From Isosphaera sp. (lineage in GTDB: Bacteria; Planctomycetota; Planctomycetia; Gemmatales; Gemmataceae), in contig PNKH01000080.1 in assembly GCA_013822345.1 (NCBI GenBank), positions 1 through 35,659 on the forward strand: a stretch of 35,659 bases of DNA, given 5' to 3'. Positions 17,688 through 35,659 of this stretch are shown piece after piece (within the stretch, counting starts at the first letter, position 1; every line of letters begins with the position of its first letter). The translations under genes and the position numbers were made by a program. Below the pieces are notes generated by a model, which ran no database searches, was not told the DNA's origin, and worked only from the letters and a program-made list of their open reading frames with translations.

Positions 17688-17879
17688 TCACACCTGCGGC
17701 AGCGGGAACCGCCCGTCGCGCTTCTCCCCCGGCGCCGCGGCCGCACACTTGCCGCAGCCCGACCCGCACCCCTTCCCGGCCGCCGCGCCGAACCACGTCC
17801 GCCACACCGCCCGGGCGACGTACAGCCCGGCCGCGGCCACCGCCAGCCCGACCACCACGAGTTGCGCCGCCGCGGACAT
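17688..17879 (-). CDS. FeoB-associated Cys-rich membrane protein
   Basis: A 63-residue protein with one N-terminal membrane span (AAAQLVVVGLAVAAAGLYVA), then WRTWFGAAAGKGCGSGCGKC with three Cys and a basic/acidic tail. This is the layout of the small Cys-rich proteins often found behind feoB. Its ATG overlaps the feoB stop (TGATG), so it is translated with FeoB. A role in the transporter complex or in iron delivery is presumed by association only. Confidence 0.85.
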   Translation of the reverse strand: MSAAAQLVVVGLAVAAAGLYVARAVWRTWFGAAAGKGCGSGCGKCAAAAPGEKRDGRFPLPQV

Positions 17880-20119
17880 CACGCCCCCCAGTCCGTGACC
17901 GCCGCCCCGACCTGGTACGTCACCAGCGCCCCGAGGTACGCCAGCGCCGTCATGTACGCGAAGGTGAACGCCGGCCACGCCCAGCTCCGCGTCTCCCGCC
18001 GGATCACCGCCAGCGTGCTCGCGCACTGCATGCACAGCGCGAAGAACACCATCACCGACGCCGCCACCGCCACCCCGTACTTCCCCCGCACCGGGTCCGC
18101 CGCCCAGTCGGCCTTCACCGCCGCCCCCAGCCCGGCGGTCTGCTCGTCGTCGCCCGGGTCCACGTCCCCGGCGCCGTACAGCATCCCCGCCGTGCCGACG
18201 AACACCTCCCGGGCCGGGAACGACGCCAGCGCCGCGGTGCCGACCTTCCAGTCCCACCCGAGCGGCCGGACCGCCGGCTCGAGCCACCGCCCGAACCGCC
18301 CGAGCAGGCTGTCCCGCTTCCACTCCCCGTTCAGACGGTCCGGCTCCGCGGCCGCCGCCTCCAGCGTCTCCCGTTCCTCCTTCTCCGCATCCGTCGCCTC
18401 GTCCTTCCCCTTCAGCTCCGCCAGCCGGTCCGCATTCGCCTCCGCCGCGGCCTCGGCCGCCGCGATCCGCTCCTCGTACGGCACCCCGGTCGGGTCGGTC
18501 CGCGGGAAGTACAGGAGGGCCCACACCAGCACCATCGCCGCCAGGATGATCGTCCCGGCCCGCACCACGAACGCCCCCCCGGCCTCGACCATCCGCCGCA
18601 CCACCGCCCGCACCCGCGGCCGGTGGTACGCCGGCAGCTCCATCACGAACACCGGCGTCGCCCCGCGCAGGAGCGTCCGCTTCAAGAGCAGGGCGACGAG
18701 CGGGGCGGTGACGAACCCGATCAGGTACAGGCCGAACAGCACCAGGCCGGGCACCCACCACGCGTACCCCTCGGTGAGGAACGCCCCGACCAGCAGCAGG
18801 TACACCGGCAGCCGGGCCGAGCAGCTCATCAGCGGGGCGACCAGGATGGTGGCGAACCGGTCCCGGCGGTTCTCGATCACCCGCGTCGCCATGATCCCCG
18901 GCACCGCGCACGCGACCGACGACAGCATCGGGATGAACGACTTCCCGCTCAGCCCGCACCGGCTCATCAGCCGGTCCATCAGGAACGCCGCCCGGGCCAT
19001 GTACCCACACCCCTCCAGCACCGCGACGAACCCGAAGAGGATCATGATCTGCGGGAGGAAGACGAGCACGCTCCCGACGCCCTTCACCACCCCGTCCACC
19101 AGCAGCGACCGCAGCGGCCCCGGGCCCAAAGCCCCCGCCACGGCCTCGCCGACCCGGCCGACCGCCCCCTCGATCCCGTCCATGAGCGGCCCCGCCCACA
19201 GGTAGATCGACTGGAACATCAGGAACATCACCGCCAGGAAGACCAGCGTCCCCCACACCCGGTGCGTCAGGACCGCGTCGATCCGGTCGGTGGCGGTGAC
19301 CCGCCGCTCGGCCGGCCGGGCCACCGCCGCCCCGACGGCCGCCTTCACCCACCCGAACCGGGCCCGGGCCTCGACCCCCGGCACAGAATGCCCGGCGTCG
19401 GCCAGGCGCCGCCGCGCCGTGTTGAGCTTGAGTCTCAGTCCCTCGCCGTGCCGCCCGACCAGCCACTGTTCGACGTACCCGCCCACGTCCAGCACGAGCC
19501 GCCGCGTCAGGAAGCCGGGCACGTCGGGGCCGAGTTCCTCCTGCAGCGCCGCGACCTCGGCCTCGAACGCCCCGGGGAACGCCGGCCCGGTCGCGGCCGA
19601 CCCGCCCTCCGCCGCCGCGACCACCGCCCGGGTCAGGTCGGTGATTCCGACCCCGGCGTTCGCCTGCACCGGGACGACCGCCACCCCGAGCCGGGCGGAC
19701 AGCTCCGCGGCGTTGATCTTGATCCCCTGCGCCTCGGCCGCGTCGATCATGTTCAGGGCGACGACGACCGGGGTGCCGAGGTCGAGCAACTGCGACGTGA
19801 GGTACAGGTGGCGGTCGAGGTTGGTCGCGTCGACGACGGCGAGGACCACGTCCGGCCGCGGCTCCTCCGGGCGGCGGCCGAGGAGGAGGTCGACGGCGAC
19901 CATCTCGTCCGGGCTGCGGGCGGCCAGGCTGTACGTCCCCGGCAGGTCGATCAGCTCGACCGCGGTCCCGCCGGCGGCGAACCGCCCCTTCTTCATCTCG
20001 ACGGTCACGCCGGGGTAGTTGCCGACCCGCTGGCGGAGGCCAGACAGGGCGTTGAACAGGGTCGACTTCCCGGCGTTCGGGTTCCCGACCAGGGCGACGG
20101 TGAGGGTCTTGGTGAGCAT
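17879..20119 (-). CDS. feoB: Ferrous iron transporter FeoB
   Basis: A 746-residue membrane GTPase that imports Fe(II). The G domain has G1 GNPNAGKST (12-20), the G2 region NYPGVTVE, G3 DLPG (58-61) and G4 NMID (123-126). After a cytoplasmic helical spacer come the gate/core membrane segments, including VFLPQIMILFGFVAVLEGCG and KSFIPMLSSVACAVPGIMAT, the paired Cys-bearing motifs typical of FeoB. A long charged loop (about 560-620, EERIAAAEAAAEANADRLAE) lies between late membrane segments. Start MLTKTLTVALVG is eight bases after the second feoA stop. The operon order is feoA-feoA-feoB-Cys-rich protein, controlled from the palindrome at 20612. Confidence 0.96.
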   Translation of the reverse strand: MLTKTLTVALVGNPNAGKSTLFNALSGLRQRVGNYPGVTVEMKKGRFAAGGTAVELIDLPGTYSLAARSPDEMVAVDLLLGRRPEEPRPDVVLAVVDATNLDRHLYLTSQLLDLGTPVVVALNMIDAAEAQGIKINAAELSARLGVAVVPVQANAGVGITDLTRAVVAAAEGGSAATGPAFPGAFEAEVAALQEELGPDVPGFLTRRLVLDVGGYVEQWLVGRHGEGLRLKLNTARRRLADAGHSVPGVEARARFGWVKAAVGAAVARPAERRVTATDRIDAVLTHRVWGTLVFLAVMFLMFQSIYLWAGPLMDGIEGAVGRVGEAVAGALGPGPLRSLLVDGVVKGVGSVLVFLPQIMILFGFVAVLEGCGYMARAAFLMDRLMSRCGLSGKSFIPMLSSVACAVPGIMATRVIENRRDRFATILVAPLMSCSARLPVYLLLVGAFLTEGYAWWVPGLVLFGLYLIGFVTAPLVALLLKRTLLRGATPVFVMELPAYHRPRVRAVVRRMVEAGGAFVVRAGTIILAAMVLVWALLYFPRTDPTGVPYEERIAAAEAAAEANADRLAELKGKDEATDAEKEERETLEAAAAEPDRLNGEWKRDSLLGRFGRWLEPAVRPLGWDWKVGTAALASFPAREVFVGTAGMLYGAGDVDPGDDEQTAGLGAAVKADWAADPVRGKYGVAVAASVMVFFALCMQCASTLAVIRRETRSWAWPAFTFAYMTALAYLGALVTYQVGAAVTDWGA

Positions 20120-20126
20120 GGGGCAG

Positions 20127-20366
20127 TCAGACCGGGCGGACGGTGACGCCGGCGGCGTCGGCCTTGCGGAGGGTGAGGCGGGCGTTCCCGAGCCGGACCT
20201 CGACCGGGTCGCCGAGCGGGGCGGTGCCGACGAACTCGACCGTCTCCCCCTCGAACAGCCCGAATTCGTAGAGCCGCTGGACCAGGGCCGGGTCGCCGGC
20301 GACGGCGACCACCTCGGCCCGGTCGCCGGGGCGGAGGTCGCTCAGGGGGGTGGCGGGGGCGGGCAT
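20127..20366 (-). CDS. feoA: FeoA domain protein (second in tandem)
   Basis: A 79-residue SH3-like FeoA: LSDLRPGDRAEVVAVAGDPA, LVQRLYEFGLFEGETVEFVG, DPVEVRLGNARLTLRKADAA, then VTVRPV. The 'L..G..' opening, 'RL...GL..G..V' middle and 'G...ALR..DA..V.V' end are the family signature. FeoA docks on FeoB and tunes transport. It has no Cys, unlike its neighbour, and lies two bases after that gene's stop and seven before feoB. Confidence 0.93.
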   Translation of the reverse strand: MPAPATPLSDLRPGDRAEVVAVAGDPALVQRLYEFGLFEGETVEFVGTAPLGDPVEVRLGNARLTLRKADAAGVTVRPV

Positions 20367-20368
20367 GG

Positions 20369-20593
20369 TCAGCCGACCGGGCGGACGAGGATCTGCGAGC
20401 ACTCCCCGCCGCGGAGGCAGAGCTTGCACCCGCCGACATCGAGCAGGCACGGGCTCCCCGGCTGTACCACCCGGAGGCGGCACCCGCGGCGGATCCCGAG
20501 GTCGGCCAGCCGGCCGACCCAGGAGTCGTGGCCGGAGACCTCCTCGACCTCGGCCACCTCGCCGGCCCGGAGCATGTCCAGGGGCAACAGCAT
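20369..20593 (-). CDS. Cys-rich FeoA domain protein (first in tandem)
   Basis: A 74-residue FeoA-like protein: LRAGEVAEVEEVSGHDSWVG, RLADLGIRRGCRLRVVQPGS, then PCLLDVGGCKLCLRGGECSQ and ILVRPVG. It carries five Cys (C38, C49, C56, C59, C65), including a C-x2-C pair, where ordinary FeoA has few or none; a metal or Fe-S site is possible. It is first in the operon, 19 bases after the proposed operator. Whether it works as a second FeoA, a regulator (as FeoC can) or an iron sensor is open. Confidence 0.85.
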   Translation of the reverse strand: MLLPLDMLRAGEVAEVEEVSGHDSWVGRLADLGIRRGCRLRVVQPGSPCLLDVGGCKLCLRGGECSQILVRPVG

Positions 20594-24006: not shown

Positions 24007-25378
24007 ATATGTTAACCCCGCCAAGGAGTTGTGGCGAGGGCGGGTCATGTCCGGGCGACCGACGGGGCGGGATGTGGAGCAGTGGGCCGCCGAGGTGGAG
24101 GTGGTGGGCGCACGGATCGGGCGTCGCTTCGCCCGGAGCGAGCCCCGCCGACGCGCCGTCGCGCACGTCCGCGGGTTGCTGAGCGACACCGAGCGGAAGA
24201 ACGGGTGGCAGCTGGCCGAGTACCTGGGCGAGGGGACCCCCGACGGCGTCCAGCACCTCCCCGCCCGCGCCGCCTGGGACGCGGACGCGGTTCGGGACGA
24301 TCTGGCCGGGTACGTTCACGAGCACCTCGGCGACCCCGACGGGGTGCTGGTCGTGGACGAGACCGGGTTCCTCAAGAAGGGGACGAAGTCGTGCGGGGTG
24401 GCCCGCCAGTACACCGGCACGGCCGGCCGGATCGAGAACGCCCAGGTCGGGGTGTTCCTGGCCTACGCGGGCGCGAAGGGCCACGCCTTCCTCGACCGGG
24501 CGCTGTACCTGCCGAAGGAATGGGCCGACGACGGCGAGCGATGTGACGCGGCCGGCGTGCCCGACGGCGTGGGGTTCGCCACCAAGCCGCAGCTGGCCGG
24601 GCGGATGATCCGGCGAGCGCGGCGGCTGGGGGTGCGGGCGGCGTGGGTGACGGGCGACACGGTGTACGGCCACGACGGGAAGTTCCGGCGGTTCCTGGAG
24701 GAGATCGGGCAACCGTACCTGCTGGCCGTGCCGGCTAACCAGCCGCTGTTCGACGGGGCGTTCCGCTCGACGGTGGGGGCGATCGCCGGTGAGTTCCCGG
24801 CGACCGCGTGGCGGCGGGCCGCCGCCGGGGCCGGGAGTAAGGGGCCGCGGGAGTACGACTGGGCGGTGGAGGCGTTCGGGGCCGACGACGAGCGGGGGTG
24901 GCGGCTGTGGCTGGTGGTGCGGCGGCATCGGGAGCGGCCGGACGAGCGGGCGTACTTCTTCGCCCGCGGCCCGGCGGCGACCCGACCGGCTGAGCTGGTC
25001 CGCGTCGCGGGGCTGCGATGGCGCGTGGAAGAGTGCCTGGAGTTGGGCAAGGGGGGGTGCGGGCTGGACGAGTACGAGGTGCGGTCCTGGGTGGGCTGGC
25101 ACCGGCACGTGACGCTCAGCCTGTTCGCCCTGGCGGTGGTGGCCGTGATCCGCTCGCGGGCCCCGGCCCGCGGCGGGAAAAGGGGGCGGCGGGTTGATCC
25201 GGGTGAGCGTCCCGGAGGTGCGGGGGCTGCTCCTCAAGCTTGTGTGGGCGGCCGTGCCGCCGGCCGAGCGGGTGCTGGAGTGGTCGGTGTGGCGACGCCG
25301 GCACCAGCACCGCGCCCGCGAATGCCACTACCGGAAACGCGGGGCCAAGCCGCCCGACTGAACAACTACGGCTGTAGG
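23991..25378 (+). mobile_element. IS701-like insertion sequence
   Basis: The element is about 1,388 bp, bounded by inverted repeats CCTACAGCCGTAGTTG (23991-24006) and CAACTACGGCTGTAGG (25363-25378); one more outward base pair (T23990/A25379) also matches. It holds one transposase gene on plus. IS701-family elements usually make a 4-bp YTAR target duplication; here the flanks are CTAC on the left and CTAG on the right, so no exact duplication is present. Together with two unrelated truncated genes at its ends, this points to a rearrangement after insertion. Confidence 0.88.
24047..25361 (+). pseudogene. IS701-family transposase, frameshifted near the C-terminus
   Basis: The DDE motifs are VLVVDETGFLKKGTKSCGVA (first Asp), VTGDTVYGHDGKFRRFLEEI (second Asp) and LRWRVEECLELGKGGCGLDE (Glu), as in IS701 transposases. 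Start ATG at 24047; a TTG at 24029 is possible. Around AAAAGGGGG (25178-25186) the frame is lost, and the +1 frame continues with LIRVSVPEVRGLLLKLVWAA and ends CHYRKRGAKPPD, the typical C-terminus, stopping at 25361. Deleting one base gives a 437-residue product of normal length. The run looks like a homopolymer error or a real inactivating indel; programmed +1 shifting is less likely but not excluded. Without the shift the frame runs past the IS into the DsrE remnant. Confidence 0.8.
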
Positions 25379-25379
25379 A
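25363..25379 (-). repeat. Right terminal inverted repeat of the IS
   Basis: CAACTACGGCTGTAGGA, perfect complement of the left end over 17 bases. It begins one base after the transposase stop (25359-25361) and is followed by CTAG. Confidence 0.88.
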
Positions 25380-25666
25380 CTAGGCCGGGCGACCTGGAGG
25401 TCGTGGTGGTGCTGCACGGGGACGCGACCGCTGCGGCCCTGGACGACGAGGCGTACCGGGAAGTGACCGGCCGCCCGCACCCGCACGCGGACGTGATGAA
25501 GAAACTGCGGGACGCCGGAGTGAAGATCTTGGTCTGCGGGCAGTCGCTGGCCCGGAAGAAGTTCGACCCGAAGCGGGTGCGGCCCGAAGTGAAGGTCGCC
25601 GCGTCGGCCGTCTCGGCCGTTGTCAACCTGCAAGCGCGGGGCTACGCCTACGTCCCGGCCCACTGA
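25380..25666 (+). pseudogene. DsrE-family protein, C-terminal half only
   Basis: About 95 residues remain: RPGDLEVVVVLHGDATAAAL, DDEAYREVTGRPHPHADVMK, KLRDAGVKILVCGQSLARKK, then VAASAVSAVVNLQARGYAYV-PAH. The LHG, CGQS and final LQxRGYAYVP motifs mark a DsrE/DsrF-like sulfur-relay or secreted DsrE protein; the Cys in VCGQS is the conserved one. The N-terminal half has been replaced by the IS, and the left flank of the IS does not hold it, so the gene was cut by a rearrangement. It reads in frame with the unshifted transposase frame, so a fusion could be made in principle. It ends 13 bases from the convergent rhodanese gene. Confidence 0.75.
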
Positions 25667-25679
25667 ACCGGGCGCGCGG

Positions 25680-26078
25680 TCAGGCCCCGGCGACGGGGAA
25701 GCCGGCGCGGGCCAACTCGTCGAACCCCGGCCGCAGGGGGCGGGCGTCGTACCCGTGCCTCGCCAGCGCGGCGGCCGCGATCAGGCTCCGCCCGCCGGCC
25801 CCGCAGTAGGTGTAGACCGGCCGCCCCTTCGGCACCGTGGCGATCAGTTCGTCTTGGGGAATGCCGCCCCGGAGCCGACTCAGCGGCAGCAGGACCGCGT
25901 CGCGGAGGTGCCCCGCGTCCCACTCCCCGGTCTCGCGGACGTCGAGGAGGGTCGCCTCTCCCGCCTCGACGGCGCGGCGGATGTCGGCCGGTGGCTCCCG
26001 CGTGTGCCGCTGACCCACCGCCCGGGCGACGGCCCACCGGAGGAATGCGTACACGACCGACCGCACCCCGCGCAGCAT
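25680..26078 (-). CDS. Single-domain rhodanese (sulfurtransferase-like) protein
   Basis: A 132-residue protein with the rhodanese fold: EAGEATLLDVRETGEWDAGH, LRDAVLLPLSRLRGGIPQDE, then RPVYTYCGAGGRSLIAAAAL with the active-site Cys at 92. Rhodaneses carry sulfane sulfur as a Cys persulfide. Residues 1-22 (MLRGVRSVVYAFLRWAVARA) are a basic, hydrophobic helix that may hold it to the membrane, like the membrane rhodanese YgaP. The start at 26078 lies 11 bases after the anti-sigma stop, so it is the third gene of a sigma/anti-sigma/rhodanese operon. Its place behind a thiol-type anti-sigma factor suggests a job in sulfur or metal stress. Confidence 0.88.
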   Translation of the reverse strand: MLRGVRSVVYAFLRWAVARAVGQRHTREPPADIRRAVEAGEATLLDVRETGEWDAGHLRDAVLLPLSRLRGGIPQDELIATVPKGRPVYTYCGAGGRSLIAAAALARHGYDARPLRPGFDELARAGFPVAGA

Positions 26079-26089
26079 GATCGTCCCCC

Positions 26090-26365
26090 TCACGACCCTG
26101 CCGGGGGGAACGTCTCGGCCCACTTGGCCCGCAGGGCGTCCCGCATCCGGGCCTGGAACTCGGGCGGCATCGGGTACGGCTCGCCGGCCTTGTACAGCCG
26201 GATGGTGCTGCGGATGTTGTCCACCACGACTCGGCACGGGTTGCAACCGGCCAGGTGGGCGGCGAACTCCCGGCACACGGCCAGAACGGTCTCGTCGTCC
26301 ACGTAGTCGTTGAGTGCCTTCAGCAGCTCCTCGCACGTCATCCCGGGCACCTCGGGGTCTGTCAC
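26090..26365 (-). CDS. Soluble zinc-type anti-sigma factor
   Basis: A 91-residue protein with a ZAS-like motif H-x3-C-x2-C (H37, C41, C44; HLAGCNPCRVV) and a further Cys at 31. It has no membrane span, so it resembles the cytoplasmic redox or metal-sensing anti-sigmas of the RsrA/ChrR sort, where thiol oxidation or metal loss frees the sigma factor. The start MTDPEVPGMTCEELL is 13 bases after the sigma stop; a second Met at residue 9 could serve. Its function as partner of the preceding sigma factor is inferred from position and motif. Confidence 0.82.
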   Translation of the reverse strand: MTDPEVPGMTCEELLKALNDYVDDETVLAVCREFAAHLAGCNPCRVVVDNIRSTIRLYKAGEPYPMPPEFQARMRDALRAKWAETFPPAGS

Positions 26366-26378
26366 GGCGGTTCGGGGG

Positions 26379-27026
26379 TCAGGGGTGGCGGTGGTCGGGG
26401 AACACCCGGGCGGCCTCGTCCCCGAACACCCGGGTCAGTTTCTCCCGCAGGGCCAGCCTGGCCCGCAGCAGCCGGACCTTCACGTTCGCCTCGGAGAGGC
26501 CGAGTAGGTCGGCCGTCTCCTTGACCGAGAACCCCTCGATGTCGCGCAGGACGAACACCGTCCGGTACTTGTCGTCCAGCCCGGCCAGCGCCCGGTCGAT
26601 CAGCTCGCGGGCCTCGTGCCGCTCGGCCAACTCGCCCGGGTCGTCCCGCCAGGGGGCGATCACTTCCGGGTGCGGGACCTCGGCATACCCCTCGTCCGGG
26701 TCGCCCGGGTCGGTGAGCGGGACGGTCGGCAGGCCCCGCCGCTTGCGGAGCAGCTTGAGCGCGTGGTTGGCGGCGATCCGCAGCACCCAGGCGGCGACCG
26801 CCGACTCCCCGCGGAAGTCCTTGAGGTGTTCGACCAGGCTGAGAAACGTCTGCTGGGTCACGTCCTCGGCGTCGTGCGACTCACCGAGCATCCGGTACGC
26901 CAGCCCGTACACCCGCCCCTGGAACCGGCCGACGAGTTTCTCGAACGCCGCGAGGTCGCCGGCCCGGGCCTGCCGCAGCAGGTCGAGGTCCGGGTCGGCA
27001 GGCGGCGAGTCGCTCGGCTCGCTCAT
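26379..27026 (-). CDS. ECF-type RNA polymerase sigma factor of the rhodanese/efflux island
   Basis: A 215-residue sigma-70 protein: region 2 in LLRQARAGDLAAFEKLVGRF, then YGLAYRMLGESHDAEDVTQQ and TFLSLVEHLKDFRGES; region 4 in LDDKYRTVFVLRDIEGFSVK and ETADLLGLSEANVKVRLLRA. The region 4 helix-turn-helix is canonical. The linker holds a Pro/Asp-rich stretch (VPLTDPGDPDEGYAEVPHPE). It heads a three-gene operon with a soluble zinc anti-sigma and a rhodanese, 73 bases downstream of the lipoprotein rhodanese stop on the same strand. A GTAAC box lies about 75 bases before the start and recurs before two other starts, consistent with autoregulation. Confidence 0.93.
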   Translation of the reverse strand: MSEPSDSPPADPDLDLLRQARAGDLAAFEKLVGRFQGRVYGLAYRMLGESHDAEDVTQQTFLSLVEHLKDFRGESAVAAWVLRIAANHALKLLRKRRGLPTVPLTDPGDPDEGYAEVPHPEVIAPWRDDPGELAERHEARELIDRALAGLDDKYRTVFVLRDIEGFSVKETADLLGLSEANVKVRLLRARLALREKLTRVFGDEAARVFPDHRHP

Positions 27027-27098
27027 CGGCGCCGTCGGGCGGGGCGGGTTCGGTGGTGACAGTGTACGCCGCCCACGCGCGACGGTGCGGCCGGTCCC

Positions 27099-27103
27099 GT
27101 TAC
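27099..27103 (-). promoter_or_regulatory. GTAAC box upstream of the sigma operon
   Basis: On the minus strand AAGTAACGGG lies about 75 bases before the sigma start, overlapping the stop of the upstream rhodanese. ECF -35 elements typically carry AAC. Two similar boxes stand at like distances before other genes of the island. No constant -10 could be found, so this is tentative. Confidence 0.3.
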
Positions 27104-27492
27104 TTCGCCTTCTCGAACCCGGCCTTCAGCAGGTTGTCGTACCCGTCCTTCAGCGGGCGGGCGTCGTACCCCAGCTTCTTGAGGTGGTCGGCCGCGACGC
27201 GGCAGCGGCCGCCCGCCGCGCAGTGCAGGTAGACGATCTTGCCCTCCGACAGCTTCTCCTTCAACTTGTCGGCCGGGACGCCGACCTTGATGTCGGACAG
27301 GGCGAGGTGGCGGGCGTCCTTCAAGTGCCCGTCCTTCCACTCGCCCTCCTCCCGCACGTCCACCAAGACGGCCTTCCCGTCGGCAACCCCCTTCTTCACG
27401 GCGTCGGTGCTGTCGGTCGTGTGGTCGGCCGCGCACGCGGCCACGGCCACCATGCCCGCCGCCACCACGCCCGCCGGAACGAATCGACTCAT
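27100..27492 (-). CDS. Exported lipoprotein-like rhodanese
   Basis: A 130-residue protein. MSRFVPAGVVAAGMVAVAAC ends in a lipobox-like VAAC (Cys20), so it is probably a lipid-anchored periplasmic protein. The rhodanese domain follows: ADGKAVLVDVREEGEWKDGH, LKDARHLALSDIKVGVPADK, then GKIVYLHCAAGGRCRVAADH with active Cys 91 and a nearby Cys 97 that could form a disulfide with it. The frame extends upstream, but the ATG at 27492 begins the signal sequence. It is divergent from the RND operon and upstream of the sigma operon. Together with the cytoplasmic rhodanese it gives the island sulfurtransferases on both sides of the membrane. Confidence 0.88.
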   Translation of the reverse strand: MSRFVPAGVVAAGMVAVAACAADHTTDSTDAVKKGVADGKAVLVDVREEGEWKDGHLKDARHLALSDIKVGVPADKLKEKLSEGKIVYLHCAAGGRCRVAADHLKKLGYDARPLKDGYDNLLKAGFEKAK

Positions 27493-27569
27493 CGGACACC
27501 TCCGCGTCGGAACAGGAACACGGCCGCCGCCCGGCGGCCCCATCGGGATGATCCGCGACCCGCCGCCCG

Positions 27570-27576
27570 AGTTACA
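27570..27576 (-). promoter_or_regulatory. TGTAACT box facing the lipoprotein rhodanese
   Basis: TGTAACT on the minus strand, 78 bases before the start at 27492. The same seven bases occur on the plus strand facing the other way at 27734-27740. The AAC core suits an ECF -35 element. Confidence 0.35.
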
Positions 27577-27686
27577 ACGGCCCTACCGAAATGTGTACGG
27601 CCCGGCACATGCCGGTGCCTCGTTCGCACACCCCCGGACGGGTTCGGCCCACGCTTCGGCACCTCGGACCGCCGTGCGGACGCCGC

Positions 27687-27706
27687 ATCCGGTGCCGGCA
27701 CCGGAT
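27687..27706. promoter_or_regulatory. Perfect 20-bp palindrome, candidate operator
   Basis: ATCCGGTGCCGGCACCGGAT reads identically on both strands. It lies between two divergent promoters, 27 bases before the plus-strand TGTAACT box. It has no loop and no T-tail, so a dimeric repressor or activator site is likelier than a terminator. No regulator gene of known site matches it from memory. Confidence 0.4.
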
Positions 27707-27733
27707 TCGCAATCACCGCCCGTGAATCGAAAG

Positions 27734-27740
27734 TGTAACT
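27734..27740 (+). promoter_or_regulatory. TGTAACT box facing the RND operon
   Basis: GTGTAACTTCC lies 74-80 bases before the ATG at 27814. It matches the box on the opposite strand at 27570-27576 and the GTAAC before the sigma gene. It is proposed as the -35 of an ECF-dependent promoter for the efflux genes. Confidence 0.35.
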
Positions 27741-27813
27741 TCCGAGCTGTCGGTGGATCGGACCCGGTAAGGGGCGGCGTCCCGCCCCGACCGACACGCC
27801 GAGGAGGCCGACG

Positions 27814-28017
27814 ATGTCTCGAGTCGCCAGGGTGACCGCGGCGGACTTCTCCCGCGCGGCGCTGTTCTCCCCCGTTACGGAGACGGCGGATGACCCGTAC
27901 GTCGCGAAGCTGATCCGGGCTCACGCCGCGGTGGTCACGAAGTTCATCGAAACCGGGCACGACGAGGTCCGCAACAACCACCCGCTGCCCGAGAAGTCCA
28001 CCCCGAAGAAGCCGTGA
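27814..28017 (+). CDS. Small hypothetical protein (67 aa), first gene of the RND series
   Basis: MSRVARVTAADFSRAALFSP, then VTETADDPYVAKLIRAHAAV and VTKFIETGHDEVRNNHPLPE, ending KSTPKKP. GAGGAGG at 27801-27807 gives a strong ribosome binding site for the ATG at 27814. The centre is a likely helix; there is no signal peptide, membrane span or Cys. I do not recognise it. It is followed after 12 bases by a small membrane protein and then the RND adaptor. Confidence 0.65.
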   Translation: MSRVARVTAADFSRAALFSPVTETADDPYVAKLIRAHAAVVTKFIETGHDEVRNNHPLPEKSTPKKP

Positions 28018-28029
28018 GAGGGGACGAGC

Positions 28030-28173
28030 GTGGCCGAGGAACCGAACCCCGCCACGGGCGGGGCTCCCGGTGTGGAGGGTCGGGGCGTGGAACTGCTCGT
28101 GCTGCTGGGCGTCTTCGCCCTGTGGATCATCTTGCAGGTGTGGGTACTGCCGAGGGCCGGGGTGCCGACCTGA
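28030..28173 (+). CDS. Small single-span membrane protein (47 aa)
   Basis: GTG at 28030 opens (M)AEEPNPATGGAPGVEGRG, then a membrane segment VELLVLLGVFALWIILQVWV and a short tail LPRAGVPT. GAGGGGAC just upstream can bind the ribosome. Small membrane peptides of this kind often ride with multi-subunit membrane complexes; its place before the RND adaptor suggests an accessory of that pump. It is too short for database-style certainty. Confidence 0.55.
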   Translation: MAEEPNPATGGAPGVEGRGVELLVLLGVFALWIILQVWVLPRAGVPT

Positions 28174-28215
28174 ACGGGCGGGGCGTGCGAGCCGCGGTCG
28201 CGGCCGGAGGCCCCG

Positions 28216-28257
28216 ATGAAAACGGCCGAGCCGAACCCCGAGGAGAGGTCACCGTGA
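28216..28257 (+). CDS. Possible 13-residue coupling peptide before the RND adaptor
   Basis: ATG at 28216 reads MKTAEPNPEERSP and stops at a TGA that overlaps the adaptor's GTG start (GTGA). CGGAGG lies six bases before it. The AGGAGAGG that serves the adaptor is inside this mini-ORF, so its translation could open or shield that site. It may also be chance. Confidence 0.25.
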   Translation: MKTAEPNPEERSP

Positions 28258-29393
28258 CGGCCACACTAACCCAGCCGGCCACCCCGCCCGCGGCCCGCCG
28301 CCGGTGGTGGCCCGTTGTCCGGTCCGCCGCGTCCGCCACTCTCGCGGTCGCCGCCCTCGGGGTGTTCCTCGCCTGGATGGGCGGCGCGTTCCGCGAGAAG
28401 GTGCGGCCCGGTGAGGCCGTCGCCGAACGCCCGTCGTCCGTGGGCCGCACCCTCGTCGCGGTCGAGCGTGTACGGACCGATGACACCGCGGCCGCGGTCG
28501 GCAGCGTCCAGCCGAAGAAGCGAACGGAGGTCGCCAGCCAGGTACTGGCGTCGGTCGTGGACGTGGGGGTCCGACCCGGGGACCGGGTCGAGGCGGGCAC
28601 CCCGCTTGTTGTCCTGGACGACCGAGAACTGGTCGCCCAGCAGCGCGAGGCCACCGCCGCCCTGACCGCCGCGGAGGCGGACCTGATCACCCGCCGCGCG
28701 GACCACGAGCGGGCGAAGAAGGCGCGAGCCAGCGGCGTGATCGGCGAGGAGGAGCACGTCAGGCTGGAAGGGGCGTTCCGGGTGGCGGAGGCACAGGTCA
28801 CGCGGGCCAAGGAAGCGATCGCCCGCCTGGCCGTGCAACTCACCCACACGAAGATCGCGGCAGCGGCGGCGGGGCTGGTCGCCGACCGCTTCGTGGACCC
28901 GGGCGACCTGGCCACCCCGGGCAAGCCGCTGCTGGTGGTGTACGACCCGGGCGACCTGGAACTGCACGCGAACGTGCCCGAGAGCCTGGCCCCGGCCGTG
29001 CCCGTGGGGACGGAACTGGCCGTCCGCATCGACGCGGTCGGGGTCGTCGCACGCGGCACCGTCCGCGAGGTCGTCCCCCAGGCCCAGCAGGCGAGCCGGT
29101 CGGTCCTGGTCAAGGTGTCGCTCCCCCCGACCCCGTCCGGCAAGCCGCTCCTGCCCGGGATGTTCGGCCGGGTCGAGATCCCGGTCGGGGCGGCCGACCG
29201 GCTGCTGCTTCCGGCCGCCGCGGTCCGCCGGGCCGGGCAACTCGACCTCGTAGAGGTGGCGAACCCGGACGGCACCCTGTCCCGCCGGTTCGTCCGGATC
29301 GGGTCCGAGGTCGGCGGGAAGGTCGAGATCCTGTCGGGGCTGGCCGAGGGCGACCGGGTCGCCCTGCCGGCTGGCGGCCCCAGCCCGAGGTGA
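28254..29393 (+). CDS. RND efflux periplasmic adaptor (membrane fusion protein)
   Basis: A 379-residue protein. Start GTG at 28254 has AGGAGAGG (28241-28248) upstream; the frame is open farther back but without signal. An N-terminal membrane anchor lies near 18-40 (ASATLAVAALGVFLAWMGGA). The lipoyl half-motif VDVGVRPGDRVEAGTPLVVL and its mate LVADRFVDPGDLATPGKPLL flank an alpha-hairpin of about 75 residues (REATAALTAAEADLITRRAD, EHVRLEGAFRVAEAQVTRAK). The beta-barrel and membrane-proximal parts follow (LPGMFGRVEIPVGAADRLLL). This is the HlyD/AcrA architecture with a fairly short hairpin. The permease starts five bases after the stop. No TolC-type outer-membrane gene is nearby, so it must share one encoded elsewhere. 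Confidence 0.93.
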   Translation: MTATLTQPATPPAARRRWWPVVRSAASATLAVAALGVFLAWMGGAFREKVRPGEAVAERPSSVGRTLVAVERVRTDDTAAAVGSVQPKKRTEVASQVLASVVDVGVRPGDRVEAGTPLVVLDDRELVAQQREATAALTAAEADLITRRADHERAKKARASGVIGEEEHVRLEGAFRVAEAQVTRAKEAIARLAVQLTHTKIAAAAAGLVADRFVDPGDLATPGKPLLVVYDPGDLELHANVPESLAPAVPVGTELAVRIDAVGVVARGTVREVVPQAQQASRSVLVKVSLPPTPSGKPLLPGMFGRVEIPVGAADRLLLPAAAVRRAGQLDLVEVANPDGTLSRRFVRIGSEVGGKVEILSGLAEGDRVALPAGGPSPR

Positions 29394-29397
29394 CCCC

Positions 29398-32300
29398 ATG
29401 AGCACCGGCCGCGGCGAAGGCGGGTTCGTCTCCCGGGTGGTCGAGGCGTTCCTTTCCGGCAACCTGTCCGTCCTGCTGATCCTCGTCATGCTCACCGCCG
29501 GCGTCGCGGCCCTCACCCTCACGCCCCGCGAGGAGGAGCCGCAGATCGTCGTCCCGGTCGCCGACGTGTTCGTCCGCATGCCCGGGGCCAGCGCCGAGGA
29601 GGTCGAGCAACTCGTCTCGTCCAAGCTCGAACGGCTCCTCTACCAGATCGACGGCGTCGAGTACGTCTACTCGATGTCCCGGCCCGGCGAGGCGGTGGTG
29701 ACCGTCCGGTTCTACGTCGGGGAGAACCGGGAGGCGAGCCTCGTCAAGCTGCACAACAAGATCATGATGCACACCGACGTGGTCCCGCCGGGGGTCACGG
29801 GGTGGGTGGTCAAGCCGGTCGAGATCGACGACGTCCCGCTGGTGAACGTCACCCTGTGGAGCGCCACGGCCGACGACTTCGCCCTGCGGCGGGTGGCCGA
29901 GCAGGTCGAGGTCGCGCTCCAGGGCGTGCCGGACACGGCCCGCACCGAGGTGGTCGGCGGCCGGCGGCGGCAGTTGCGGGTCACCCTCGACCCGGAGCGG
30001 ATGGCGTCCAGGCAGGTCACCCCGCTCGACGTGGACCGGGTGCTGCGCGGGGCGAACGTGAGCCTCCAGGCCGGGTCCCTTCGGGCCGGAAGCCGCGAGG
30101 TGACCGTCGAGAGCGGGCCGTTCGTCCAGTCGGCCGGGGAGTTGGAGACGCTCGTCGTGGGGGTGTTCGCCGGGAAGCCGGTGTACCTCCGCGAGGTCGC
30201 GGCCGTGGCGGACGGCCCGGAGGAGCCGGCGAGCTACACGCGGATCGCCTTCGGCCCGGGGGCGGCGAGCCGCCCGCCCGGGGCCGACGCCGGCGCGGAT
30301 TTCCCGGCGGTCACGGTCGGGGTGGCGAAGCGGAAGGGGAGTAACGCCGTCTCCGTCGCCCACGCGGTCGAGGCGAAGCTGGACGAGTTGCGGCGGACGG
30401 TCGTCCCGCACGACGTCGAGGCCCGCGTCACCCGGAACTACGGGGAGACGGCCGACGAGAAGGTGAACGAACTGGTCCGCGAACTCGGGCTGGCCATCGT
30501 CATCGTCTCGGCGCTCATCATGTTCAGCCTCGGGTGGCGCGAGGCGCTGATCGTCGTCACCGCCGTCCCGCTCACCTTCGCGCTGACGCTCCTGGTCAAC
30601 TACCTGGCCGGGTACTCGATCAACCGCGTGACGCTGTTCGCCCTCATCCTCGCGCTCGGGCTGGTGGTCGACGACCCGATCGTGGACGTGGAGAACATCT
30701 TCCGCCACTTCCGGCTCCGGCGGAAGCCGCCGCGGGAGGCGGTGCTGGAGGCGGTCAACGAGGTCCGCCCGCCGATCATCGTGGCGACGCTGGTGGTGAT
30801 GGTGTCGTTCCTGCCGATGCTGTTCATCACCGGGATGATGGGGCCGTACATGCGGCCGATGGCCCTGAACGTGCCGGTCGCCATGCTCATGTCGATGGTG
30901 GTCGCGTTCACCGTCACCCCGTGGCTCAGTTACCACGTCCTGAAGGGCGTGTACGGCAAGGGCGGGCACGCGCCGGTTGACCCGAAGTCCACCCTCACGT
31001 ACCGGGTGTTCCGGGCCGTCCTCACACCGTTCCTGAACTCCCGGCTCGCGGCGTGGGCGCTGATCGGCTTCACCGGCCTGTTGCTGGTGGGTTCGATGGC
31101 CCTGCCGGCGCTCGGCCTCGTCCCGCTCAAGATGCTGCCGTTCGACAACAAGAACGAGTTCCAGGTGCTCACCGACTTGCCGGAGGGGAGCACGGTCGAG
31201 CAGACCGACGCGGCCCTCAAGGACCTCTCGGAAGAGTTGCGGGAGGCGCCGGAGGTCGCGGAACTCCTGAGCTTCGCCGGCACGGCCTCGCCGATGGACT
31301 TCAACGGGATGGTCCGGCACTACTACCTGCGGCGGGAGCCGAACCGGGGCGACCTGCGGGTGAACCTGGTCCCGAAGGAGCAGCGTGAGGCCCAGAGCCA
31401 CGCGGTCGTACTGCGCGTGCGGGGCGGGCTGGAGGCGGTGGCGAGGAAGCACAACGCCCGCCTCAAGATCGTCGAGGTGCCGCCCGGACCACCGGTCCTC
31501 AGCACCTTGGTCGCCGAGGTGTACCCGCAGACGCATCAAGGCTACGCCCAGTTGCGGGCCGACGCGAAACACGTCCGCGGGTTGTTCGAGCGGGCGGCGG
31601 GCGTGGTGGACGCGGACGACACGTTCGAGGCCGAGCGGCCGCGGCTCGTGTTCCGGGTGGACAAGGAGAAGGCGTCGGTCACGGGCGTCACGACCGAGCA
31701 GATCGCCAACACCCTGCGGATCGCCCTGGCGGGCATGACCCCGGGCGAGGGCGACCCGAAGGACTTCCGGGCCGGCAGCGCCCACCTGCCGCGAGAGCTG
31801 AACCCGCTCGTCATCCTGATGCAGTTGCCGCAGTCCGACCGCAGCCGGGTCTCGCAACTCGAACGGCTCGGGGTGAAGACGCCGGCCGGGGACATCGTCC
31901 GCCTCGCCGAGTTGGGCCGGTTCGAGGAACTGCCCGCCGAGCAGACGATCCACCACAAGAACCTGCGGCGGGTGGCGTACGTCACCGCCGAGACGGCCGG
32001 CCGCACGCCGGGCGAGGCGGTGATCGGACTCATGTTCGAGTTGCGCGACCACCCGGCGCCGGGCGGGGCCGAGGTGGTGTGGGCCGGCGAGGGCGAGTGG
32101 AAGATCACCCTGGACGTGTTCCGCGACCTCGGGCTGGCGTTCGCCGGGGCGCTGCTGATGATCTACATCCTGATGGTCTACCAGACCGGCAGTTACCTCA
32201 TCCCGCTGGTGCAGATGATCTCCATCCCGCTGACCATCATCGGCATCATGCCGGGCTTCTGGCTCCTGAACGTGGCGACGGGCACCACGGTCGGCGGCTT

Positions 32301-32697
32301 CGCCAACCCGGTGTACTTCACCGCCACGGCGATGATCGGGATGATCGCGCTCGCGGGCATCGCGGACCGCAACGCGATCCTGTTGCTCGACTTCGTCCAG
32401 CACGTCCGCGACCGCGGGGCGACTTTGAAGGAGGCCCTGATCGAGAGCGGTGCGGTGCGGTTCCGGCCGATCCTGCTGACGGCCGGGGCGGCGATGCTCG
32501 GGGCGTGGCCGATCACCCTGGACCCGGTGTTCAGCGGGCTGGCGTGGGCGCTCATCTTCGGGCTGGTCGTCTCGACCGCGTTCACCCTGCTCCTGGTGCC
32601 GGTCGTCTACTGGATGCTGTACAAGGGCTCAGAAAGACCGCCGGAGTCGGCGCCGCCCGGGCCGAGCCCTCCCCCGCAGAGCGAGGTGGTGTCATGA
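29398..32697 (+). CDS. RND efflux permease (AcrB-like, Asp-Asp proton relay)
   Basis: A 1,099-residue inner-membrane pump. The N-terminus has a first span ([20 protein letters not shown]) followed by PREEEPQI, typical of the branch whose permeases carry 'P.EEDPQI'. The proton-relay Asp pair is present in span 4 ([19 protein letters not shown]425 and D426), unlike CusA-type metal pumps, which have a single Asp there. The late spans include [20 protein letters not shown] and [20 protein letters not shown]. Porter domains show [20 protein letters not shown] and similar motifs. GAGGTGA at the adaptor stop is its ribosome binding site. The stop overlaps the next start (ATGA). The substrate cannot be read from the sequence; neighbours suggest sulfur compounds, thiol-reactive agents or metals. 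Confidence 0.95.
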
Positions 32698-32966
32698 CCG
32701 TGGGACAGCGGATACGGGCGATCGCGGGGACCTTCGTGCTGGCGTCCCTTGCCCCGGGCTACTTCGTGTCGCCCTGCCGGCAGCTGTCCACCGCGTTCGT
32801 CGGGGCGAACCCACTCCAGTCGGCGTTGACTCGGTGGTGCCCAATGGAGACGTTCCTGGCATGGCCGGCCGGGGCGTCACGTCGGGGCCGCTCGTCATGG
32901 CACTTCGGGGCAGGGGTGTGCCGGACCCGCGCCACGCCGGACCCGGCCGGGCGGCACACAGTATAA
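32694..32966 (+). CDS. DUF2892 (YgaP-tail-like) small membrane protein
   Basis: A 90-residue protein starting [20 protein letters not shown], then [20 protein letters not shown] and [11 protein letters not shown]. This follows the DUF2892 pattern 'QR..R..AG..VL.SL..GYFVSP....TAFVG.N..QS..T..CP', two short membrane spans ending in the Cys-Pro motif. Hydrophobic positions I expect to be Leu/Trp/Phe are here Pro, Arg, Gln or Ser, so the second span is unusually polar and the gene may be drifting. The tail after WCPM (about 40 residues, Arg/Gly-rich) is longer than usual. It overlaps the permease stop by four bases. In E. coli YgaP the same unit anchors a rhodanese to the membrane. Confidence 0.7.
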
Positions 32967-33046
32967 CTCCCCCGTCCGGGCCGTACGGCCCTTCCCGCAG
33001 CCGGGGCGGACGCCCGAGGTCGACCGCCCCGGCGACCGTCGAGCGC

Positions 33047-34933
33047 ATGACACCGACACACGGCACCCCGCCCGGCCCGCCGGCGGGGCGTACCCAGACC
33101 GTCATCGCCGCCGGGGCGGTCCTGGCGATCGCCGCGCACCTCGCCGGGCGGTGGCTCGGGCCGGCCGCGCCCGGCGTCCCGGTCCGCCCGGCCGACGCCC
33201 CGCTGCTCGCGGCGTTGGCCCTCGGCGGCGGGTGGCTCGTGCTCGGGCTGCTCGCCCGCCTCTCCCGCGGCCAGTTCGGGTCGGACCTGCTCGCCGGCAT
33301 CTCGATCGTGACGTCGGTGGTCCTCGGGGAGTACCTGGCCGGCACCCTGGTCGTCCTGATGCTGTCGGGCGGGGAGGCCCTGGAGGCGTACGCCGTCCGC
33401 CGGGCCTCCTCGGCCCTCGACGCGCTCGCCCGGCGGATGCCGGCGGTCGCCCACCGGACCCGCGGCGGCACCCTCGCCGACGTCCCGCTCGCCGACGTGG
33501 CCGCCGGCGACCTGGTCGTGGTGTTCCCCCACGAGACGTGCCCGGTGGACGGGACGGTGGCGGACGGGCACGGGACGATGGACGAGTCGTACCTGACCGG
33601 GGAGCCGTACCTGCTGGCCAAGGCCCCGGGGTCGGCCGTCCTGTCCGGGGCGGTCAACGGGGACTCCGCCCTCACCGTCCGGGCCGACCGGCCCGCGGAC
33701 GACTCGCGGTACGCCAAGATCATGCGGGTGATGCGGGAGTCGGAGCAGCGGCGGCCCCGGCTCCGCCGGCTGGGGGACGCGCTCGGGGCGTGGTACACCC
33801 CGTTCGCGGTCGCCGTCGCCCTGGCCGCGGGGGCGGCGAGCGGTGACCCGGTCCGGTTCCTGGCGGTCCTCGTGGTCGCCACCCCGTGTCCGCTCCTGAT
33901 CGCCATCCCGGTGGCCATCGTCGGGGCGGTGTCGCTGGCCGCGCGCCGCGGGATCGTGATCAAGGACCCGGCCGTCCTGGAGGTGGTCGGCTCGTGCCGG
34001 GTGGCGATCTTCGACAAGACCGGGACGCTCACCTACGGCCGCCCGGCGCTGGTCGGGCTGACCCCGGCGGACGGGTTCGAGCGGGACGAGGTGCTGCAAC
34101 TGCTCGCCAGCCTGGAGAGGTACTCCCGGCACCCGCTGGCCGGGGCCGTGCTGGGCGCCGCCGCGGCCGCGGGGCTTCCGCTGCGGGAACCGACCGAGGT
34201 CGCCGAGCGCCCCGGGCAGGGGCTGGTGGGGGTCGTCGCCGGCCGCACCGTCCGGGTGACCGGGCGGACGAAGTTGGAGGAGGCCGAGCCCGCGACGGCC
34301 CGACTCCTCCCACCGACCACCGGGGGCCTGGAGTGCGTCGTCCTGGTTGACGGGCGGCTCGCCGGCACGGCCCGGTTCCGGGACCGGCCCCGGGCCGACG
34401 GGCGGGAGTTCATCCGGCACCTCGCTGCCCGGCACGGGTTCGACCGGGTGCTGCTGGTGTCCGGGGACCGCGAGGGCGAGGTGCGGTACCTGGCCGAGGC
34501 GGTCGGGATCGCCGAGGTCTACGCCGGGCAGAGCCCGGAGCAGAAGGTCGAGATCGCCCGGCGGGAGACGGCGGGGGCGAGGACCGTGTTCGTGGGGGAC
34601 GGGATCAACGACGCCCCGGCGCTGACCGCCTGCACCGTGGGGCTGGCGTTCGGGCAGAACAGCGACGTGACCGCGGAGGCGGCCGGGGCGGTGATCCTGG
34701 ACGCGGACCTGAAGCGGGTGGACGAGTTCCTCCACATCGGGCAGCGGCTCCGCGCGGTCGCCCTCCAGAGTGCGGTCGGGGGCATCGTCCTGAGCCTCGG
34801 CGGGATGGCGCTGGCGGCGGCGGGCCTCCTGCCGCCGGTCGCCGGGGCGGTCCTCCAGGAGGTGATCGACGTGCTGGCCGTCCTGAACGCCCTCCGGGTC
34901 GGGTTCCCTCCGAAGGCGCTCACCGACTACTGA
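33047..34933 (+). CDS. P1B-type heavy-metal-transporting ATPase with TPCP motif
   Basis: A 628-residue metal pump. Key motifs are actuator TGE (184-186, YLTGEPYLL), the metal-site motif TPCP (279-282, [15 protein letters not shown]), phosphorylation DKTGT (Asp 323), the nucleotide-site HP pair ([10 protein letters not shown]) and GDGINDAP (517-524). There is no N-terminal metal-binding domain. Membrane spans near 20-75, 250-300 and 570-615 give the usual P1B layout. TPCP rather than CPC or SPC has been assigned to a minor P1B group (often called P1B-5, linked to nickel and iron in Sinorhizobium Nia); applying that here is inference. Start [14 protein letters not shown] at 33047 begins just before the first span; the open frame upstream lacks homology. 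It lies 80 bases after the DUF2892 gene. Confidence 0.93.
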
Positions 34934-35310
34934 TGGCGGACCGGCTGCCGTCGGTCACGAGCACCGTAGCCCCTGTCGTCCTGCCGACCCGGAGCCGCCG
35001 GAGGGCCTTGTCGGCCTTGACGAGCGGGAACGTCTCGACCGTGGTGCGGACCGGGACCTTCGGGGCCAGGGCCAGGAACTCCACGCCGCGCCGAGGGAGC
35101 GGGCGAAGGCTTGCGCCCCCAGGTCGCCGGGGCTGGTGAAGGCAAACACCTCCCGGCCCTGGTGCCGGGCGACTCGGGCGACGATGTGGGCGGCCGCCCC
35201 GAACCCGTAGATCCCCAGCCGCCGGGCCTCGCCGGCCATCGACAGGGAGCGGTAACCGATCAGCCCGGCACACAGCAGCGGGGCGGCCTCGGGGACCGGG
35301 ACCGGCAGGC
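34920..35310 (-). pseudogene. Decayed zinc-dependent alcohol dehydrogenase
   Basis: Two pieces of a medium-chain zinc ADH are visible. Upstream: [40 protein letters not shown] and [26 protein letters not shown], the nucleotide-binding start. Downstream, in another frame: [40 protein letters not shown] and TVLV, the usual C-terminus. The joint is at about 35,088, where some 90 residues are missing and the frame changes. The catalytic N-terminal domain with its zinc Cys residues is absent too. The 3' end overlaps the end of the ATPase gene by 14 bases in convergent orientation. It is not a working gene. Confidence 0.75.
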
Positions 35311-35659
35311 CGGCGGGGCGGAGGGGTCGGCCGGGGGCGGTGAGGCACGTCGCGAGCACGACGGGTACTCCGGCCGGCGGGTGTGTATAAGGGCGGAACG
35401 GCCCGCCGGCATATAAGCGTGTAACGCCTGACTCGGGGTCAACGGTCGGCGACCCGGACCCGATCGCCCACGCGGGCGCTCGGGCGTAGGTCAGCATGGG
35501 TGCAGGCGAGAGTCCTTCGAGGGCGGTCAGCAGGGCGTGCGCCTCAACCTCGCTCATCCGGTTGGCGCCAACCAACCCACAGGCGACGGAGCCCGGCTCA
35601 GCCATCGGGCCCGGCCCCCGCCCCCCGGGCCACGGTGCCAACCACCAGCCGGGCTGCCG
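35311..35659. other. Window end with no gene I can support
   Basis: Open frames here have no recognisable product. An AT-richer stretch with GTGTATAAG and CATATAAGCG (about 35,380-35,420) could hold a promoter. A minus-strand frame (start about 35,605, [20 protein letters not shown]) runs into the ADH remnant and is probably an accident. Confidence 0.5.

Follow-up and report, generated by a model that had tools for sequence, protein, structure and literature searches.

The 35,659-nt stretch analysed here (the window) is contig C80 (PNKH01000080.1) of a 7.47-Mb genome of Isosphaera sp. (Gemmataceae, Planctomycetota; GCA_013822345.1) assembled in 226 contigs, and it carries a locus in which an extracytoplasmic function (ECF) sigma factor and a zinc-type anti-sigma factor are divergent from an efflux pump of the resistance-nodulation-division (RND) type (Table 1). 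The minus strand is read in the order exported rhodanese, ECF sigma factor, anti-sigma factor and second rhodanese; the plus strand carries a 67-aa open reading frame (ORF), a 47-aa peptide, the RND adaptor, the RND permease, a DUF2892 protein and a P1B metal ATPase. These genes, together with a DsrE remnant nearby, had been listed by an original prediction made from the letters of the sequence, and the ORF listing, Pfam and NCBIfam recovered all of them. The sigma factor has regions 2 and 4 without region 3, with the anti-sigma gene adjoining (Pfam, NCBIfam), and the DUF2892 gene starts with an ATG that overlaps the permease stop by 4 nt. Two descriptions were revised. The outer rhodanese, previously regarded as a separate lipoprotein unit, is present as a gene; it heads the sigma operon, since it lies on the same strand with a promoter-like site in front. 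Because 5 of the 13 relatives (window included) have a lipobox-like cysteine immediately ahead of the A/D or A/E-H-T start and 8 lack it, the protein is better called exported than a lipoprotein, probably with a periplasmic location. Of the two small plus-strand proteins, the second recurs in relatives, whereas the first is a deletion scar.

Table 1. Features of the divergent locus in the window (positions of the whole stretch).
Feature	Position	Strand	Evidence
DsrE domain, C-terminal remnant	25379-25663	+	
Second rhodanese, paralogue of the first	25680-26078	-	PF00581 3.1e-12
Zinc-type (zf-HC2) anti-sigma factor, soluble, RsrA-like; C11, C31, H37, C41, C44	26090-26365	-	PF13490
ECF sigma factor	26379-27026	-	Sigma70_r2 + r4_2, TIGR02937
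Exported single-domain rhodanese, active loop HCAAGGRC	27100-27492	-	PF00581 4.2e-14; alignment of relatives
TGTAAC-N16-GGATC, ECF-type promoter-like site, 57 nt before the rhodanese start codon	27550-27576	-	
TGTAAC-N15-GGATC, ECF-type promoter-like site, 54 nt before the first pump-operon ORF	27734-27759	+	
ORF, 67 aa, deletion scar (thioredoxin start/cl5 end)	27814-28017	+	Protein and DNA comparison
47-aa peptide, one transmembrane helix by eye, ends ...WVLPRAGVPT	28030-28173	+	
RND periplasmic adaptor	28254-29393	+	TIGR01730 3.6e-51
RND permease	29398-32697	+	PF00873 / ACR_tran, E 3e-165
DUF2892 / YgaP-like_TM membrane protein	32694-32966	+	PF11127 4.3e-11 for 32697-32966
P1B metal ATPase (E1-E2 ATPase) with TPCP, DKTGT, GDGIND	33047-34933	+	TIGR01525/TIGR01512

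Comparison of 13 regions upstream of the exported rhodanese yielded a motif, TGTAAC-N15/16-GGATC, with the same two words facing outward in both directions. The window contains exactly two copies, both outward-facing and both within the 321-bp divergent gap, against 0 expected from shuffles of the window; the whole genome contains three, and the reversed-pattern control none. The third copy (G000:C138 5691-5717, TGTAAC-N16-GGATC) lies beside genes that are cas-like by eye and was judged background, probably a chance match. When one mismatch and spacers of 14–17 were allowed, all 12 ECF loci that carry this rhodanese (the window among them) had sites in both directions, exact in ten and in L038 only with one mismatch. 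Exact sites lie 45–61 nt ahead of the rhodanese start in ten relatives and, on the pump side, 14–53 nt ahead of the called gene in six; the pump-side distance is 269, 579 and 697 nt in L031, L032 and L034, where small genes may have escaped the calls. Among 32 distinct exact sites (17 loci), the letter after TGTAAC is C or T in all 32 and the letter after GGATC is A in 24, both positions lying outside the searched letters. Four permease loci with an ArsR gene and without the anti-sigma gene (L024, L041, L042 and L046) have no exact site, and L041, whose genome gave no anti-sigma match, has none within one mismatch. The paired sites, their distances, the siteless ArsR loci and the co-occurrence of anti-sigma and permease described below make it likely, on sequence grounds, that both operons are controlled by this ECF sigma factor; the switch that had been proposed over both operons now has a promoter-like site before each.

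To place the locus in its family, 95 Gemmataceae genomes were searched and permease homologues taken at E <= 1e-100. The permease was found in 22 of the 95 (own genome included) and the anti-sigma factor in 18, 17 of which also have the permease (Fisher 1.7e-13, not corrected for kinship). Up to 20 kb around the permease matches of 20 relatives, with more taken later for G079, were compared using tblastn, gene calls made for each locus and home-made profiles; the gene calls are approximate, and the profiles were built partly from the counted loci, so that those loci (and L119, which is the L045 contig) match by construction. Among the 22 relative loci (21 genomes), we counted the anti-sigma factor in 13, a small transmembrane (TM) peptide in 13, a ~180-aa protein (cl5) in 8, DUF2892 in 7, methyltransferase-DsrE in 7 and thioredoxin in 6; in G044 the anti-sigma gene sits on the contig of the locus, a little beyond the extracted stretch, and in G019 and G036 on another contig. 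The core is a conserved Gemmataceae locus of rhodanese, ECF sigma factor and RsrA-like anti-sigma factor, divergent from pump genes that run exported protein, one-TM peptide, RND adaptor and RND permease, with thioredoxin and DUF2892 genes at their head in some members. Uniqueness to this genome had been named beforehand as an outcome that would tell against the island, and the locus is shared.

Around this core the composition varies. The tiny one-TM peptide carries the motif WVLPxxGxxT in the window, in L029 (5749-5871) and in L178 (9363-9593), and cl5, exported and histidine-rich by eye, recurs with the operon (L028-L037) and had no Pfam match for the one member scanned. None of the 22 relative loci showed a single-domain rhodanese directly behind the anti-sigma gene. 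In L083 this place is taken by a YgaP-like reading; in L028, L030, L031 and L036 the anti-sigma gene adjoins a ~390-aa fusion of methyltransferase and DsrE or the methyltransferase half of one, and L034, L035 and L037 have such a gene downstream of the permease (Pfam was run on one such protein). The original prediction saw in the separate rhodanese and DUF2892 genes the split parts of a YgaP, a possible reading on which the relatives bear as follows: intact sister operons carry the thioredoxin-DUF2892 pair, and other members carry whole YgaP-like proteins (L045 by Pfam; L041 and L042 by profile). For a second, weaker anti-sigma/ECF pair in the window's own genome (contig C20), none of the listed neighbours matched a sulfur profile.

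The anti-sigma factor has C11, H37, C41 and C44 at RsrA's own position numbers, and in an alignment of 14 anti-sigma factors C41 and C44 are present in 14 and C11 and H37 in 13. Extracts of one RsrA study (PMC4960319) describe these four residues as zinc ligands and C11 with C41 or C44 as the trigger disulfide. A soluble, thiol-type anti-sigma factor, as first suggested for this locus, is thus supported by residues at RsrA positions.

The genes behind the site in relatives give the sulfur theme of the locus its support, chiefly through one genome. Exact sites in G004 lie 63–115 nt ahead of four sulfur-type starts, namely a metallo-beta-lactamase/rhodanese gene of dioxygenase type, paired Sulf_transp genes of YedE type, a gene of the sulfide:quinone oxidoreductase (SQR) type, and a YgaP-like/TauE/dioxygenase-rhodanese series. 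By resemblance only, an exact site precedes an SQR-type gene in G003 (75% complete, without an anti-sigma match), three sites surround TauE/dioxygenase-rhodanese fragments beside the sigma and anti-sigma genes in G036, and in G079 a site located where the anti-sigma gene ends stands ahead of a rhodanese-plus-DUF2892 (YgaP-like) reading. The label 'SQR-type' is used because the curated cut-off was not reached: the best family, SQR_III, is a model of a selenoprotein subtype and scored 261 and 117 bits against a cut-off of 525. In G044 a site behind the anti-sigma gene is followed first by cl5 and a multicopper-oxidase-like gene; a CoA-disulfide-reductase-like/rhodanese gene lies farther downstream. 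In the window's genome, the rhodaneses and the DUF2892 protein are the only genes behind the sites with a sulfur link, and they are accompanied by the pump.

A motif census of 27 chosen family genomes (21 permease relatives and 6 without the permease) found 76 exact sites, against 11 for the reversed pattern. The 16 genomes with the anti-sigma factor hold 50, of which 29 are inside these loci and 21 elsewhere (1.3 per genome); the 11 genomes without it hold 26 (2.4 per genome). The background therefore amounts to one to two sites per genome, and the regulon seems small and local. Exact sites outside the loci in G038, G039 and G002 are beside unrelated genes, and G067 has no gene calls there.

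The permease has a full ACR_tran domain and an adjoining adaptor, as expected for RND pumps of the hydrophobe/amphiphile efflux (HAE) type. Residues D425, D426 and R991 are invariant in 11 aligned sequences; from comparison with AcrB we take the two aspartates to lie in TM4, and R991 presumably stands where AcrB carries K940. Its best curated families are multidrug RND permeases, far under their cut-offs, with 470 bits for the multidrug model compared with 273 for the CusA/CzcA model (cut-off 701). Beyond the family, we examined the best 80 of 593 confirmed permease loci in a named collection, which may lack records near the window's own genome, counting genes within 4.5 kb (near; 578 kb in total) and at 5.5–10 kb (far; 401 kb in total). 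These loci span Planctomycetota, Desulfo-groups, Methylococcales, Nitrosomonas, Verrucomicrobiota and others. DUF2892 was near the permease in 21 of 80 and far in one, and TolC (27), ArsR (12, assigned at family level only), SQR (9), rhodanese (6) and thioredoxin (3) were near and never far. The recurrence of such neighbourhoods across phyla, which the original prediction had noted for sulfur-oxidizing proteobacteria, therefore holds for permease with DUF2892 and with rhodanese. The DUF2892 gene directly behind the permease in the window finds a similar case among the 22 relatives only in L045 (YgaP-like, with its own site), and the same order occurs in other phyla (for example, L092, L093, L094, L126, L149 and L152).

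The anti-sigma factor occurs in 1 of the 80 named loci, L119, which is the contig of G004. A search of an even draw of 392 phylum genomes with the anti-sigma profile (threshold 1e-8) matched six: the window's own, four strong outsiders and one weak. An adaptor-permease pair is present in two of the strong outsider loci (L177 and L179) and a DUF2892 match in three (L178, L179 and L180); no exact site was found in the four. One-mismatch sites 36 nt ahead of the anti-sigma gene in L177 (upstream of 9770) and 97 nt ahead of DUF2892 in L179 (upstream of 8633) may be chance or a drifted motif; occasional matches are to be expected at this stringency. A cytochrome-bd-subunit-I-like gene with a second membrane gene was seen near the anti-sigma gene in L177 (11025-13579), L178 (6213-8734) and L082 (9755-12315), a pair recurring in two families with Pfam support for L177 and the rest by eye; since bd oxidases are sulfide-insensitive, such genes would fit a sulfide defence.

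We consider it probable that the locus is a locally acting switch of ECF sigma factor and zinc-thiol anti-sigma factor for a small sulfide/persulfide-defence regulon. The sequences themselves establish which genes are present and conserved, the pairing of the sites, the ligand residues, the occurrence of sites ahead of sulfur genes in relatives and the erosion described below; that this sigma factor reads the sites is inferred, as are the thiol chemistry, the inducer and what the pump carries. In the resting cytoplasm, an anti-sigma factor with zinc on C11-H37-C41-C44 would hold the sigma factor. Persulfides, polysulfides or the resulting disulfide stress would oxidize the anti-sigma cysteines, so that zinc is lost and the sigma factor freed to transcribe from TGTAAC-N15/16-(C)GGATC(A), present here as one divergent pair. 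One arm would produce the exported rhodanese, sigma factor, anti-sigma factor and second rhodanese, giving autoregulation in this genome; the other would produce the small membrane peptide, adaptor, permease and DUF2892 protein. The rhodanese and DUF2892 proteins may then handle sulfane sulfur while the RND pump exports products, and sister genomes would add thioredoxin, SQR-type, dioxygenase-type, TauE and YedE genes. Reactive sulfur is proposed as the inducer on account of the gene company of the site in relatives, chiefly G004, and of the ArsR-type sulfane-sulfur regulators, which, according to extracts of PMC12423496, associate with rhodanese, SQR, persulfide dioxygenase, TauE, YeeE and RND pump genes. 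A more specific version, which we hold with rather less assurance and somewhat short of an even chance, is that the anti-sigma factor senses persulfide directly through per- or polysulfidation of C11, C41 and C44 with ejection of zinc, that the pump exports persulfidated or polysulfide products, and that in Gemmataceae and a few other Planctomycetota the system replaces the ArsR repressors that accompany this pump elsewhere.

Several results weigh against this proposal. The window's own genome lacks a strong SQR (best match 36% identity over query residues 8-140) and its dioxygenase-like match is partial (39% over 13-197), so the sulfide link rests on relatives. Among these, G044 has sites ahead of a multicopper-oxidase-like operon and, at 271 nt, of a ferritin-like gene, and its ECF locus also carries an ArsR gene. 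In the named loci, dioxygenase (4 near and 1 far), TauE (3 and 1), YedE (1 and 1) and CoA-disulfide-reductase (4 and 2) are hardly enriched. On the side of the sensor, the L038 protein lacks C11 and H37, the window protein falls below the cut-off of the RsrA model (25.5 versus 62.5 bits) and is for that reason called RsrA-like, its profile matched only RsiW, weakly, in the PDB, and extracts of PMC7406223 indicate that zinc motifs of such anti-sigma factors can be structural. The sites themselves are uneven: no site within one mismatch was found in the 400 nt before the sigma gene in any of the five loci without a rhodanese in front (L043, L044, L045, L081 and L083); none precedes the adaptor in L043, L044 and L083, with one one-mismatch site in L045; and L038, L043 and L044 have no exact site among the 13 relative loci with the anti-sigma gene. 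A site before the sigma operon is thus present in 12 of 12 rhodanese-led loci compared with 0 of 5 others, so autoregulation is not general; it may be restricted to loci led by the rhodanese, the motif may have drifted, or the sites may have another reader.

The main rival is a general disulfide or electrophile stress system of the SigR-RsrA kind, in which the anti-sigma factor senses oxidized thiols of any origin, the pump exports thiol-reactive organics and the sulfur genes serve thiol repair. The RsrA-type residues, the thioredoxin in 6 of 22 relative loci and the multidrug families nearest to the permease would suit it; we nevertheless regard it as unlikely, given that 29 of the 50 exact sites in anti-sigma genomes are inside the loci, that the other 21, most of them uninspected, are no denser than in genomes without the anti-sigma factor, and that the G004 sites precede sulfide-type genes. 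Less likely still is that another sigma factor or regulator common to these loci reads the sites and the ECF gene merely travels along. The assignment of the sites to this sigma factor comes from sequence comparison, and the five loci with a siteless sigma gene, as well as L043 and L044 with no exact site at all, would agree with such a reader; sites that flank the sigma operon both ways in all 12 rhodanese-bearing ECF loci, their position 45–61 nt ahead of the rhodanese and their absence in exact form from the four ArsR loci argue for the ECF factor.

The least probable explanation, and one we consider very improbable, is a metal-efflux island of RND pump and P1B ATPase under a metal-sensing anti-sigma factor: despite the ATPase gene adjoining the operon with no terminator-like site found between, an adaptor match to a CzcB-type model under its cut-off and the multicopper-oxidase-like gene behind a site in G044, the permease scores better with the multidrug than with the CusA/CzcA model, and in all eight other family genomes with both genes the permease and the ATPase homologues (E <= 1e-100) are on separate contigs or 219 kb apart. 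Two loci depart from this: L046, alone among the 22 relative loci, has a weaker P1B fragment at ~9 kb from the permease, and L134, the only one of the 80 named loci, has a P1B gene near it (far, 0). The ATPase, which had been counted as part of the module, was therefore dropped from it and is judged from these neighbourhoods to be a chance local neighbour of the pump operon, which disfavours the metal reading as a whole.

The effector genes form a known set; the ECF/zinc anti-sigma switch for such a set is the new element. ArsR-type regulons (SqrR, BigR, YgaV, SoxR and sHdrR) have a gene set similar to that of the locus and use a cysteine repressor on DNA, whereas here genes would be activated by a promoter-specific ECF sigma factor with a zinc-type anti-sigma factor. 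SigR-RsrA of Streptomyces likewise has a soluble CHCC anti-sigma factor, with the same residue positions, and its ECF partner in one operon. SigR, however, directs a large thiol-oxidative regulon from GGAAT/GTT-type promoters, in contrast to the few sites, many of them on sulfur genes, and the different motif found here. Rhodanese and YgaP-like membrane domain stand together in E. coli YgaP, which is controlled by YgaV (extracts of PMC9774250), while in the window they are separate proteins with an RND pump and whole YgaP-like proteins occur in relatives. The open-licence literature consulted named ArsR-type regulators (SqrR, BigR, YgaV and sHdrR) and CstR repressors as sensors of sulfide-derived sulfur and, in abstracts, AdpA and a cluster with yrkD and nreB; among the papers listed from it, no title or abstract opening described a link of an ECF or anti-sigma factor to sulfane sulfur, SQR or rhodanese. 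If the proposal is true, a sigma/anti-sigma switch adds a mechanistic class to reactive-sulfur sensing and links zinc-thiol anti-sigma factors to persulfide chemistry. The defined motif would allow the regulon to be mapped in planctomycetes, and the locus would offer a way to the cargo of this permease family, whose members are found next to DUF2892 and SQR genes in several phyla.

The window copy of the locus is eroded in two places. The gene order in L030 is thioredoxin (WCGPC), DUF2892, cl5, adaptor and permease, and the 67-aa ORF consists of about the first 20 thioredoxin codons joined in frame to the last 47 cl5 codons, a match that extends to the DNA. A deletion of ~1 kb in L030 terms removed the thioredoxin active site, the DUF2892 gene that stood between, and most of cl5. 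At the other end, a DDE_5 transposase (24074-25363, plus strand) reads in frame into the DsrE remnant; judging from this junction, an insertion truncated a methyltransferase-DsrE gene, its N-terminal part being replaced by the DDE transposase.

Other genes were noted in the window. At the contig end, a zinc-dehydrogenase-like reading (34955-35659, minus strand) is seemingly broken and had no Pfam match. A FeoB-like gene with two small FeoA-like genes by eye occupies 17688-20593 (minus strand). A ribonucleotide-reductase-like ORF of 2080 aa (419-6661, minus strand) contains by eye two intein-like insertions, the stretches beginning CTSGDS or CVTGDT and ending HN.

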